Virus record (IMG/VR): IMGVR_UViG_3300042691_013029
Location: 1-37,291 of that record
Strand: one strand, 5' to 3'
Length of the DNA stretch: 37,291 nt
From: a virus
A model generated the notes under the pieces. It did not search any database and was not told the DNA's origin. It saw nothing but the letters and a program-made list of their open reading frames with translations. The stretch's first letter is position 1; each line of letters starts with the position of its first letter. The translations under genes were made by a program, and so were the position numbers. Shown piece by piece: positions 10,924-37,291 of the stretch.

Positions 10924-11114
10924 CCGACGATATGGTGTGGGGCCTCATCAACAGGCTGCAAGGGGCGGAGGGGTCCAACCTCTCCCCCCGAGCAGTGGCC
11001 CGCATCCATGAGATCATCACCCAATGTCAAACCAATGGCTACCCAGACCGAGGCACGCAGACAGAGCAGGCACAGTGGCTGGCCGACAGAATGTTCCGCG
11101 ATGAAAATAAGTGA
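10911..11114 (+). CDS. Small protein, 67 aa
   Basis: A 67-aa protein overlapping its upstream neighbour by 13 nt and its downstream neighbour by 14 nt. It looks helical (DDMVWGLINRLQGAEG, then PRAVARIHEIITQCQTNGY) with a C-terminal TEQAQWLADRMFRDENK. No motif is recognised. The tight packing on both sides supports a real gene. Confidence 0.62.
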   Translation: MDVVTDDMVWGLINRLQGAEGSNLSPRAVARIHEIITQCQTNGYPDRGTQTEQAQWLADRMFRDENK

Positions 11115-11412
11115 GACCAAGCTGAGCAACCGGGCGAAGAACGCCCTGCTGGATGCAGGCATCGAGAAGCTGGACGACCTGCCCAGCTACGACGAGCTGA
11201 AGCAGATACGCAACCTGGGCAAGATGTCGCTCTACCAAATTGAGGAACTCAAGAAGGAGATGGAGGTCATCCCTGACAAGGTAGACCTGCGTGACTACTT
11301 CGCAGGACTTGCCATGCAGGCCCTGATAGCTGACGGCATGGATGGCTATGGCAACGTGGCGGAGCATGCCTATGCACATGCCGATGCCATGCTCAACGAA
11401 CGCAACCGATGA
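11101..11412 (+). CDS. RNA polymerase alpha-CTD-like protein with a phage C-terminal domain
   Basis: A 103-aa protein. Residues about 5-50 (KLSNRAKNALLDAGIEKLDD, LPSYDELKQIRNLGKMSLYQ, IEELKKEM) follow the C-terminal domain of bacterial RpoA closely: L-S-x-R-A-x-N-x-L, then I-x-x-L-x-D-L, then L-x-x-I-R-N-L-G-x-x-S-L-x-x-I. In RpoA this fold binds UP elements and activators. The C-terminal part (DLRDYFAGLAMQALIADGMD, ending AYAHADAMLNERN) matches a separate short domain common in phage hypothetical proteins. ATG 11101 removes a non-alpha-CTD-like upstream extension. It could redirect the host polymerase; this is inference. Confidence 0.72.
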   Translation: MKISETKLSNRAKNALLDAGIEKLDDLPSYDELKQIRNLGKMSLYQIEELKKEMEVIPDKVDLRDYFAGLAMQALIADGMDGYGNVAEHAYAHADAMLNERNR

Positions 11413-11636: not shown

Positions 11637-11922
11637 GCGCATCGGCAGCGAGAGCTACCTCGACTATGCGTTCGGGGCACAGCCGCCATCATCTGGGCGA
11701 GGCGGCTGGGAGCTGTTCGAGGACCGCCCTGGTATCACCGAGGAGGACCGACCGGATGACGACCTGATGGCTAACGGCACACATCGTTGGACCCTTCAAG
11801 ACACCGCCACGCTGATACGCCTTGCCAAGCTACAGGTGGACTGGATGACCATCGCCCTCATCGTCAAGCGGACACCATCCGCTTGCAGGGTTCGATGGCA
11901 TAAGCTATCTTTGGGCGCCTGA
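11494..11922 (+). CDS. Myb/SANT-like DNA-binding protein candidate
   Basis: A 142-aa protein. The first half is acidic and Pro/Gly-rich without a motif. The C-terminal third (HRWTLQDTATLIRLAKLQVD, then WMTIALIVKRTPSACRVRWH) has the Myb/SANT pattern of three helices with spaced tryptophans, in which the last helix, S-A-C-R-x-R-W-x-K-L, is the recognition helix. DNA binding, and so a regulatory role, is likely but unproven. The promoter of the downstream structured RNA lies inside the 3' end of this gene. Confidence 0.65.
   Translation: MASILTVKSKWLDKPWEPEPGSRQGPAASYLHDGQVKHLSWAELQAGERIGSESYLDYAFGAQPPSSGRGGWELFEDRPGITEEDRPDDDLMANGTHRWTLQDTATLIRLAKLQVDWMTIALIVKRTPSACRVRWHKLSLGA
11884..11913 (+). 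promoter_or_regulatory. Bacteroidota-type promoter of the structured RNA
   Basis: TTG at 11884-11886, a 19-nt spacer and TATCTTTG at 11906-11913 match the -33/-7 consensus exactly. It lies inside the 3' end of the 11494 gene, and transcription would begin just before the first hairpin at 11918. Confidence 0.8.
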
Positions 11923-12026
11923 CCATTCAGGCCACGGGTCGCAGCCGTGATGGACAGACAACCACATAGGCCCCAAAGGGAACGCTCCGCTGCGACCGGA
12001 GCAAGTACCTGCGGGGCCTTTCTTTT
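11918..12026 (+). ncRNA. Candidate structured RNA with complementary (kissing) loops
   Basis: About 109 nt lie between a consensus promoter and a terminator, with no reading frame. Hairpin 0 is CCTGA/TCAGG (11918-11931). Hairpin 1 is CACGG (11933-11937), loop GTCGCAG (11938-11944), CCGTG (11945-11949). Hairpin 2 is GCTCCG (11984-11989), loop CTGCGAC (11990-11996), CGGAGC (11997-12002). The two 7-nt loops are perfectly complementary, extending to 9 nt if the closing pairs open. An outer stem AGGCCCC/GGGGCCT (11968-11974 with 12013-12019) closes hairpin 2 and is followed by a U-rich tract. It may be a free small RNA or a switch in the leader of the 12030 gene, whose ATG follows 3 nt after the tract. 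Confidence 0.72.
11968..12026 (+). terminator. Terminator formed by the outer stem of the structured RNA
   Basis: A 7-bp stem (11968-11974 with 12013-12019) is followed by TTTCTTTT through 12026. The stem encloses hairpin 2, so formation of other long-range pairings could alter termination. Confidence 0.7.
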
Positions 12027-12029
12027 GCG

Positions 12030-12698
12030 ATGAAGGATAAACTACTTGAGATGCTTGGCGGCATGACATCCGTGAGCATCAAGCCTGGGGAGGTGTGGTA
12101 TGACTACCTGCACCAGATGGTGCTGAGGCATCCGGACGCAGCGGATAAGATTGGAGCAGGGGTAGCGGCATTCATCGTGCGTCGCAAGACGAGGATGGGC
12201 AACACCTACCCCGAGCTGTTCGCGGATCGCATCGACGGCACGACCATAGATGTGTCGTGGCGCAAGTGCGAGAAGGGCAAGGACCATAGCACAGGTCAAC
12301 TATTTACTATGGCAATGCGCCAAGCCATCGCGCCTCAGATAGCTGCCTTCCGCAGCACGGTCAGCGTGAGCGACTCATGTGGCTTCTGTGGCACAGCCGT
12401 TGGCGTCATGATGCACATTGACCATGCACGTCCGTTTGCCGACCTGCTCCGCACATTCATGCAGGGCAGGTCGATGCCCGACCCTCGCAACATCGATGAG
12501 ACCTTCATCGCTGAATGGCAAGCCTTCCACCTTGAACATGCTACCTTGAGGCCGTCGCATCCCGCTTGCAACCTCAATCCCACTTCCGTCGCCCCTTCTT
12601 CTATATATATAGAAAAGGGGACTTTTGAGGGAAAAACGAAAAGGGCCAAAAAAGCCACCGCGAAGTGGGATAGCGGGATGCCCTCTGAAAATCAATAA
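12030..12698 (+). CDS. DCL-family (DUF3223) protein with C-terminal HNH-like zinc motif
   Basis: A 222-aa protein. Residues about 18-85 match the DCL/DUF3223 pattern: LHQMVLRHPDAADKIGAGVA, then an R-x-DG-T-x-x-D-x-S-W-x-K-C segment. Residues about 115-185 hold a split zinc/HNH-like site: SCGFCG, then HIDHARPF, then FHLEHATLRPSHPACN. Bacterial DCL-family proteins often carry such an HNH-like tail, but the nuclease activity is not established. The C-terminal 40 residues are Lys-rich and are encoded by AT-rich DNA holding a palindrome and iteron-like repeats. It starts right after the structured RNA. Confidence 0.72.
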   Translation: MKDKLLEMLGGMTSVSIKPGEVWYDYLHQMVLRHPDAADKIGAGVAAFIVRRKTRMGNTYPELFADRIDGTTIDVSWRKCEKGKDHSTGQLFTMAMRQAIAPQIAAFRSTVSVSDSCGFCGTAVGVMMHIDHARPFADLLRTFMQGRSMPDPRNIDETFIAEWQAFHLEHATLRPSHPACNLNPTSVAPSSIYIEKGTFEGKTKRAKKATAKWDSGMPSENQ

Positions 12699-15798: not shown

Positions 15799-15927
15799 AT
15801 GGCCAAGTACACACCGAAGAACCCGGCAGGAAGCAGAGCGCCCATTGTAGGGCTACCTGTGCCTTCTGTTCGCTCTCCACGCCGTCAACGTGGCCTGCCG
15901 GACCTTTCGCAATGTGGAAGAAAATAG
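15799..15927 (+). CDS. Small basic ORF, possibly truncated
   Basis: A 42-aa frame 30 nt after the junction promoter. It is basic and Pro-rich (MAKYTPKNPAGSRAPIVGLP, then VPSVRSPRRQRGLPDL) and its last codons overlap the start of the HNH gene. DNA up to about 15911 is GC-rich, then becomes AT-rich, so this may be the 5' fragment of a gene cut by the endonuclease segment. I do not recognise the intact gene. Confidence 0.45.
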   Translation: MAKYTPKNPAGSRAPIVGLPVPSVRSPRRQRGLPDLSQCGRK

Positions 15928-16433
15928 AAGGCTGGTCGAACTACGAAGTAAGTGATTGTGGCATGGTTCGTCGTATTGCTTGCACAATACGATATCCGCA
16001 AGGTTTTGATTGTTTCTACAAGGAGCGACTGATAAAGCCAGAGAAAACAAGGTCTGGTTATTTGCGTGTGACATTGAGCGAGTTCAATAAGCAAAAGAGA
16101 TACATGGTTCACCGATTAGTGGCATTGCATTTTTTGAAGAATCCGAGCAGAAAGCCACATGTGAACCATATTGATGGGAATCCTTCAAATAACAATGCGT
16201 CAAACCTTGAATGGTGTACGCCATCAGAGAACGAATTGCACAGCTATAATGTGCTTGGAAAATTGAATCCCATTAGAAAACTGACTGACGAACAGGCTGC
16301 TGAAATAAGAGCAAAAAGGGGCGTTATCTCTTCTCGCCTTCTTGCGCATATGTACGGCGTAAATAAAAAAACAGTGTTAAACATTTGGAACAATGTCTGT
16401 TACATTAAGGCCGTACCAACAAAAGGCTGCTGA
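15912..16433 (+). CDS. HNH homing endonuclease (NUMOD4 plus HNH)
   Basis: A 173-aa free-standing endonuclease. Residues 2-21 (WKKIEGWSNYEVSDCGMVRR) form a NUMOD4 DNA-binding motif. The HNH core runs through MVHRLVALHFLKNP, PHVNHIDGNPSNNNASNLEW and CTPSEN, with the NHIDGN and SNLEWC elements complete. A C-terminal helix-turn-helix-like segment (LTDEQAAEIRAKRG, then SRLLAHMYGVNKKTVLNIW) resembles NUMOD1/IENR1-type repeats. The gene is clearly more AT-rich than its neighbours, a sign of transfer. Its last 41 nt overlap, in another frame, the new 5' end of the helicase it interrupts. It probably cleaves uninvaded helicase genes to spread. Confidence 0.92.
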   Translation: MWKKIEGWSNYEVSDCGMVRRIACTIRYPQGFDCFYKERLIKPEKTRSGYLRVTLSEFNKQKRYMVHRLVALHFLKNPSRKPHVNHIDGNPSNNNASNLEWCTPSENELHSYNVLGKLNPIRKLTDEQAAEIRAKRGVISSRLLAHMYGVNKKTVLNIWNNVCYIKAVPTKGC

Positions 16434-36756: not shown

Positions 36757-37291
36757 ATGAGCGCATGTTCACTTCTTACCGGTGGGTTCCTCGCAGGAGA
36801 GAACAACTGCAACCAGGTTGCAGCCGGTGTCTATCACAACCGCATCTGGCTGGCTAACCTTGAAGAGATCCTCGCATGGGGTTCTTCGGCTACGCCCAAT
36901 CAGTATGACGCTCTGACGTTCGGTGCTGGCGATGGCCTCTTCGCCCTGAAGCTGGACAAGGATAGCGTCATTTGGCGTGAGGAGTATGACCCCGAGACCA
37001 AGAGCTGGTACCATGAGTTCAGCGGCAAGGTGGCCGACCTCGGCATCACCGCCCGCAACTTCATTGAGTCGCTGGCCGGTCCCGACATCGTGGCTATCCT
37101 TGAGCTGAAGGCTGGCGTGTTCAAGATCATCGGCAAGGACGCTGGGGCTAAGCTGTTCAGCCACGTCGGCACATCCGACCAGGCTGAGGTGGGCAACATG
37201 TTCAGCATCCGCGCCGAGAACATGAGCGAGCCGTGCCCCCACTTCTGGGACACCAACGAGAGCACTACCTTGGCCCTGCTTCAGTCTTACG
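36757..37291 (+). CDS. Putative tail tube/major tail protein, N-terminal part
   Basis: The gene begins with ATG 36757 and runs off the window end; it continues at base 298 of the window because the ends overlap, giving 182 residues in all. The start is MSACSLLTGGFLAGENNCNQ, followed by VAAGVYHNRIWLANLEEILA, a pattern I associate with small beta-rich tail tube proteins of Bacteroidota phages. It follows the capsid gene after a hairpin. A head decoration protein cannot be excluded. Confidence 0.6.
   Translation, partial: MSACSLLTGGFLAGENNCNQVAAGVYHNRIWLANLEEILAWGSSATPNQYDALTFGAGDGLFALKLDKDSVIWREEYDPETKSWYHEFSGKVADLGITARNFIESLAGPDIVAILELKAGVFKIIGKDAGAKLFSHVGTSDQAEVGNMFSIRAENMSEPCPHFWDTNESTTLALLQSY
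36995..37291. repeat. Terminal direct repeat, right copy
   Basis: Identical to bases 1-297; lies inside the tail-tube-like gene. Confidence 0.97.

Follow-up and report, generated by a model that had tools for sequence, protein, structure and literature searches.

In ColE1, fully complementary loops of 7 nt pair between the sense and antisense RNAs of the RNA I/RNA II system, and in the repZ leader of ColIb-P9 and other IncI-type plasmids a loop-mediated pseudoknot lies before the replication genes, under antisense control and with a leader frame. T4-type phages carry PeSL cassettes, which are mobile and consist of a promoter and a simple stem-loop. In Bacteroidetes, translation is initiated without Shine-Dalgarno sequences and promoters are of an own type. 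The put RNA of phage HK022 is a short, two-arm nascent antitermination RNA of early phage transcripts, with two sites per phage, that acts in cis whatever follows (PMC9378689), and some of the conserved kissing loops of the ROOL and GOLLD phage RNAs are intermolecular (PMC12286853).

The DNA analysed here (the window) is the whole stretch of 37,291 nt of the virus record IMGVR_UViG_3300042691_013029. It has an exact 297-bp direct repeat at its ends (1-297 and 36995-37291), so that the record probably represents a complete phage genome, and its primase and terminase have relatives in Bacteroidetes phages. Comparison of the sequences points to a new, well-supported and apparently undescribed RNA family in this and other phages, characterized by a covarying loop-loop contact.

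Anatomy of the element

Positions 11917-12026 of the + strand hold a promoter-proximal RNA of about 110 nt with two hairpins, the 7-nt loops of which are exactly complementary. A sequence-only reading had placed a structured RNA with two perfect-stem hairpins and exactly reverse-complementary loops at this site, and direct reading of the sequence agrees with it, coordinates included. The features are the following:

11883-11913, + strand: promoter, with TTG at 11883-11885 and a Bacteroidetes-type -7 element TATCTTTG at 11906-11913 (TAnnTTTG type)
11917-11932, + strand: hairpin hp0, stem GCCTGA/TCAGGC, loop CCAT; directly abuts hp1, near the expected transcript start
11933-11949, + strand: hairpin hp1, stem CACGG/CCGTG, loop GTCGCAG (11938-11944); compensatory changes in the stem
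11950-11968, + strand: AUG (11950-11952) straight after hp1, and A/C-rich linker, 19 nt
11969-11974 with 12013-12018, + strand: outer stem P1, GGCCCC/GGGGCC, enclosing hp2; 100% paired, both sides vary
between P1 and P2, + strand: 3x3 internal loop AAA/TGC, as read from the sequence
11978-11979 with 12008-12009, + strand: P2, a 2-bp helix with a GC-to-CG change in the second L076 copy
11980-11982 with 12004-12007, + strand: bulged-G-like loop GAA/AGTA (GAA/AGUA in RNA), as read from the sequence
11984-12002, + strand: hairpin hp2, stem GCTCCG/CGGAGC, loop CTGCGAC (11990-11996); compensatory changes
11938-11944 with 11990-11996, + strand: kissing helix of 7 bp between loops that are exact reverse complements; covariation
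12019-12026, + strand: U-rich tract TTTCTTTT, a T-rich outlier preceding the start codon
12030-12698, + strand: DUF3223 (DCL-like) gene, 222 aa (Pfam DUF3223, E=1.8e-8; HNH-like motifs by eye)

A strict descriptor, which asked for two perfect stems (5 bp or longer) inside 75 nt whose 7-nt loops are exact complements, matched only this element in the 37-kb window and nothing in 60 dinucleotide-preserving shuffles. The fold energy of 11918-12029 is by itself moderately low (z -1.9), so that homologs were needed. Hairpin hp0 is predicted between promoter and hp1 in eight of nine folded class I copies (see below), often with GNRA- or UUCG-type loops, and is absent in L002. The arrangement of GAA opposite AGTA, a sequence suggestive of bulged-G (sarcin-ricin/loop E) motifs, occurs in 12/12 class I copies, AGTA itself being part of the search patterns, and was not seen in the class II copies. 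The segment AAAGGGAA at 11975-11982 could also pair with TTTCTTTT at 12019-12026; this alternative fold is preferred by the minimum free energy in L005 and is unsupported in some copies.

Homologs and covariation of the loops

By pattern scans and covariance models we found 12 distinct sequences of what we call class I, namely that of the window and 11 more in 11 other phage contigs (alignment A3), and, led by a weak match of model R2, a divergent class II in three contigs (G009, G007 and L091; positions L121 1983-2112, L122 8567-8449 and L091 2690-2551, the latter two on the minus strand). Class II has loops GGCCAG/CTGGCC and internal loops different from those of class I, in the same self-kissing layout; the 15 copies compared below are both classes together. 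The L002 copy was reached via the neighbouring primase and has changed yet complementary loops (GTGCAG/CTGCAC), and core patterns found L003/L004 (identical element), L005, L007/L011, L043, L047, L049, L059, L076 and L091. Covariance model R1, built from nine sequences, recovered a held-out second L076 copy at 59.6 bits (E=2.3e-14); this copy had escaped every pattern and again has new loops (GTGCCG/CGGCAC). Because a pattern match had to contain all or part of the core AAAGGGAA/AGTACCTGC/GGGGC, the way of searching accounts for some of the core's apparent invariance. No pattern included the loops, hp1, the hp2 stem, the promoter, the AUG or the downstream spacing, so the conservation and covariation of these do not stem from the search.

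Many further pattern matches were chance matches in coding sequence, as were the four matches L012-L015 of a genome-contig scan; L006 was a chance match, L074 (from R1 on the Bacteroidota genomes) a tRNA-plus-terminator false match, and weak opposite-strand matches at the element were its own mirror and were dropped. BLAST against phages (including cultured ones) and plasmids returned no real relative, the DUF3223 protein as bait gave none, the exact hp1 pattern had no matches, and no copy was present in the primase-bearing loci L101-L120 of Bacteroidota genomes or in the phages MW202828 and 11b. Neither R1 on 396 Bacteroidota genomes nor R2 on 395 genomes from a single class gave a copy, which is weak evidence of absence, as filtering in both scans was strict and few candidates were scored in each genome. 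In line with the sequence-only reading, which knew of no described phage RNA of this form, comparison of the window with Rfam 15 yielded no family, for 11850-12100 not even at E<=5, and five homologous loci gave only a spurious miRNA match far below the gathering threshold.

In each of the eight distinct loop pairs of class I, 6-7 nt are perfectly complementary, with duplex energies between -7.8 and -11.1 kcal/mol. Random re-pairing of the loop states would give about one complementary pair, and loops of different states match over 5 nt at most; class II adds a ninth pair. For the 26-pair structure including the kissing helix, 94.2% of the aligned cells are standard pairs (78.1% in shuffles), both partners have changed in 16 of the 26 pairs (7.4 in shuffles) and the covariation score is 0.431 (0.130 in shuffles), and none of 500 shuffles reached the observed value for any of the three; slid controls were 33-46% paired. 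Alignment A3 was fitted to the hp1/P1/P2/hp2 structure and can favour those pairs; the kissing helix is outside the model. In an unsupervised helix scan of an alignment in which two rows (L011 and the second L076 copy) were corrected by hand with knowledge of the kiss, the loop-loop helix ranked first, 100% paired; in the uncorrected alignment it is 87.3% paired. Compensatory changes are also found in the stems of hp1 and hp2 and in P1 and P2. Other conserved helices showed little covariation, so that no clear switch was seen. On this comparative evidence, no helix of the element has better covariation support than the loop-loop one, and the loops really pair: as in a kissing-loop RNA, two complementary hairpin loops are kept so by compensatory change. 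The sequence-only reading, which had proposed the kiss and had itself named a lack of covariation in homologous phages as one of two findings that would refute it, is clearly borne out on this point.

The kiss is probably intramolecular, judging from the lengths of the parts. Arms of 21-23 nt go with linkers of 18-21 nt in class I and arms of 26-28 nt with linkers of 24 nt in class II, and the loops of the two L076 copies do not fully match each other; both facts favour pairing within one molecule, which covariation itself cannot separate from pairing between copies. Pairing between two RNA molecules, in a dimer or a ring as in phi29 pRNA or the ROOL/GOLLD assemblies (PMC12286853), would suit the full complementarity of loops of 6-7 nt and their duplex energies, and has these precedents, but is unlikely in view of the same two facts and of a site beside an operon start, where a leader is more to be expected than a free and abundant RNA.

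Operon starts and possible modes of action

A promoter of the form TAnn(T/C)TT(G/A/T) is present 14-36 nt 5' of hp1 in all 15 copies, as had been proposed for the window; the TAnnTTTG consensus has been discussed for F. johnsoniae (PMC6847099). The start codon (ATG) of the next gene follows P1 by 10-17 nt in 15/15 copies (about 11 nt in the window), and a pyrimidine-rich tract lies between the P1-hp2 arm and this ATG. The linker behind hp1 is A/C-rich in all 15 copies as well.

The elements precede early, often DNA-copying, genes in several Bacteroidetes-type phages. In the window and L002 these are a DUF3223/HNH-like gene and then a primase, at the first L076 copy a small cysteine-rich frame and then a primase, at L004 an unannotated 257-aa protein, at L043 and L049 DUF6291, at L005, L047 and L059 a small protein followed by an initiator-like-looking protein with at most weak HTH matches, at L011 a DEAD/SNF2-type helicase and at the second L076 copy an unannotated 235-aa protein. 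The near-identical class II RNAs also precede different genes (PAPS-reductase-like in G009, with a weak Pfam match of E 0.037, and helicase-like, by eye, in G007). The upstream genes vary between phages as well; a Myb-like gene is found there in the window, L043 and L049 and, by eye, in L076. As the neighbouring genes vary, what the element goes with is its promoter and the start of an operon, not any one protein, and the special link to the DCL-like gene that had been suggested from the window is unsupported. We also observed, just upstream of the element in the window, a match to the C-terminal domain of the RNA polymerase alpha subunit (11101-11412, in ORF 11008-11412; Pfam E 1.3e-9), which makes the small protein of this ORF a candidate phage transcription factor; a tRNA gene (L004 7225-7298, CAT anticodon by eye) that ends just 5' of the leader promoter; and a NUMOD4-HNH homing-type endonuclease gene (window 15912-16433) that overlaps the start of the helicase gene.

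The upstream promoter, the constant distance range to the start codon and the varying genes behind make a cis-acting leader the most likely explanation, and the presence of two elements at separate genes in four contigs (the remaining contigs, some of them fragments, have one) is as expected for cis elements. We thus regard the element as probably a cis-acting structured 5' leader of the phage early/replication operon, the proposed fold of which would set operon expression. Host RNA polymerase would start at the TAnnTTTG promoter; the nascent RNA would fold hp0 and hp1 first and the P1-hp2 arm next, and the loops of hp1 and hp2 would then kiss within the same molecule to give a compact knot, whose 3' end would lie about 11 nt from the operon's first start codon. 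The fold would set the expression level at the junction of P1, U-tract and start codon, by read-through or at translation start, possibly via a factor recognizing the internal loops, which are conserved. If the leader does act in cis, the step might be attenuation or read-through, for which we have a tentative preference, or translation gating, which seems somewhat less probable; action on RNA polymerase would be rather unlikely, and mRNA protection unlikelier still.

The U-tract of the window has a T content of 0.64, against a mean of 0.20 at 25 other starts in the window, and as a T-rich outlier fits a terminator-like role, yet the tract is missing from some copies: P1 is followed by TTTCTTTT in the window, TTTTTTT in L004, CCCCCTTTTT in L091 and TTTTGCGTAG in L047/L059, and the tract is weak or absent in L047, L059, L091 and class II. 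Simple attenuation is thus not general. P1 and hp2 followed by TTTCTTTT are only terminator-like and form no simple terminator hairpin, and a scan for intrinsic terminators on the + strand did not call them. The small RNA of about 109 nt ended by a terminator that the sequence-only reading proposed hence holds up as a structured RNA, and not as a separate RNA with a real terminator, given the nearby start codon and the unconserved tract. A stand-alone small RNA that ends at the U-tract and acts in trans on targets in the phage or its host, with read-through from upstream serving the downstream gene, could account for the own promoter, the compact fold, the U-rich tract of most copies and the unpaired A/C-rich linker. 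It is nevertheless improbable, as the start codon in all 15 copies leaves no room for another promoter, the tract is poor in the copies named, the linker varies in sequence, and the loops pair mutually and drift, and hence are not conserved antisense seeds. That the element is a guide-type RNA serving the adjacent HNH/DUF3223 protein, or part of a coding frame, is very improbable and largely refuted by the homologs: it adjoins a DUF3223/HNH-like gene in the window and L002, but the remaining class I copies have other genes next, and no reading frame is conserved.

Two cis versions name the regulated step. In the one, the fold is a translational gate like the IncI-type rep pseudoknot leaders, in which an AUG after hp1 opens a leader frame that the kissing fold couples to the first gene. 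Such an AUG lies 0-1 nt 3' of hp1 in 15/15 copies, though the neighbouring letters vary, and in 8/15 its frame ends no more than 11 nt from the second start (with an ATGA overlap of leader frame and gene start in the window and L002), while in 3/15 it enters the gene in frame. However, the frame differs among homologs, stopping after five codons in L003/L004 and in mid-arm in G009b/G007b; another frame is open nearly as often (11 versus 12 of 15 copies); a test for a protein-coding leader found no conserved reading frame or peptide, three different frames crossing the same core; and the AUG abuts the stem and is not preceded at -3 by the A that acts positively in F. johnsoniae (PMC6847099). 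We therefore consider this gate rather doubtful. The conservation of the AUG is puzzling: Bacteroidetes are reported to have fewer AUGs around starts than expected (PMC6847099), and the frame that it opens is nothing special. In the other version, the nascent RNA would modify RNA polymerase for read-through, like put of HK022. The promoter-proximal position independent of the gene behind, the one or two elements per phage at separate early genes and the two-arm fold (compare PMC9378689) are consistent with this, but there is no evident homology to put in sequence or structure, and the put paper mentions no pseudoknot (PMC9378689); we hold this version to be quite unlikely. More broadly, and speculatively, the cis leader may belong to a class of nascent phage RNAs that form a self-kissing knot at the starts of early transcripts and directly modify the Bacteroidetes transcription or translation machinery, as an exchangeable cassette before early genes with an own loop pair in each copy.

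Comparison with known systems

Our searches turned up no earlier description of such structured leader RNAs in phages of Bacteroidetes. In hosts that initiate translation without Shine-Dalgarno sequences and have their own promoter type, a leader that is kept while the genes change offers a handle on early-gene control, and the nine self-matching loop pairs are a natural kissing-loop set for RNA engineering.

Like ColE1 RNA I/RNA II, the leader has fully complementary loops of 7 nt, but both are in one transcript. An antisense Bacteroidetes-type promoter (CAAAnnTA) was found in 0/15 copies between hp1 and 150 nt past P1, other promoter types being outside the scan; antisense control was set aside, and control like that of ColE1 is unsupported. 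With the ColIb-P9/IncI-type repZ leader it shares a loop-mediated pseudoknot at replication genes and a possible leader frame; it differs in that no antisense promoter was found, the frame is not conserved and some of the genes behind it have no known role in replication. The lysine riboswitch is a leader RNA that likewise has a loop-loop kiss, together with a loop-E type turn to which the GAA/AGUA loop may correspond, whereas here there is no Rfam match at E<=5, no five-way junction and no association with amino-acid genes. ROOL and GOLLD are also phage-encoded structured RNAs with covarying kissing loops (PMC12286853), and the L004 copy follows a tRNA gene, but they are several hundred nucleotides long, free and oligomeric (PMC12286853), and the leader matches no Rfam model. 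Like put of HK022, the leader is a short, two-arm RNA that is independent of the gene behind; it would lie in early phage transcripts, being promoter-proximal in 15/15 copies, and four contigs have two elements. There is no sequence match, host group and RNA polymerase differ, and the arms of the leader are joined by a covarying kissing helix. Finally, PeSL cassettes also place a promoter and an RNA structure before changing phage genes, but where theirs is a simple stem-loop, the leader has a long conserved fold that includes tertiary pairing.
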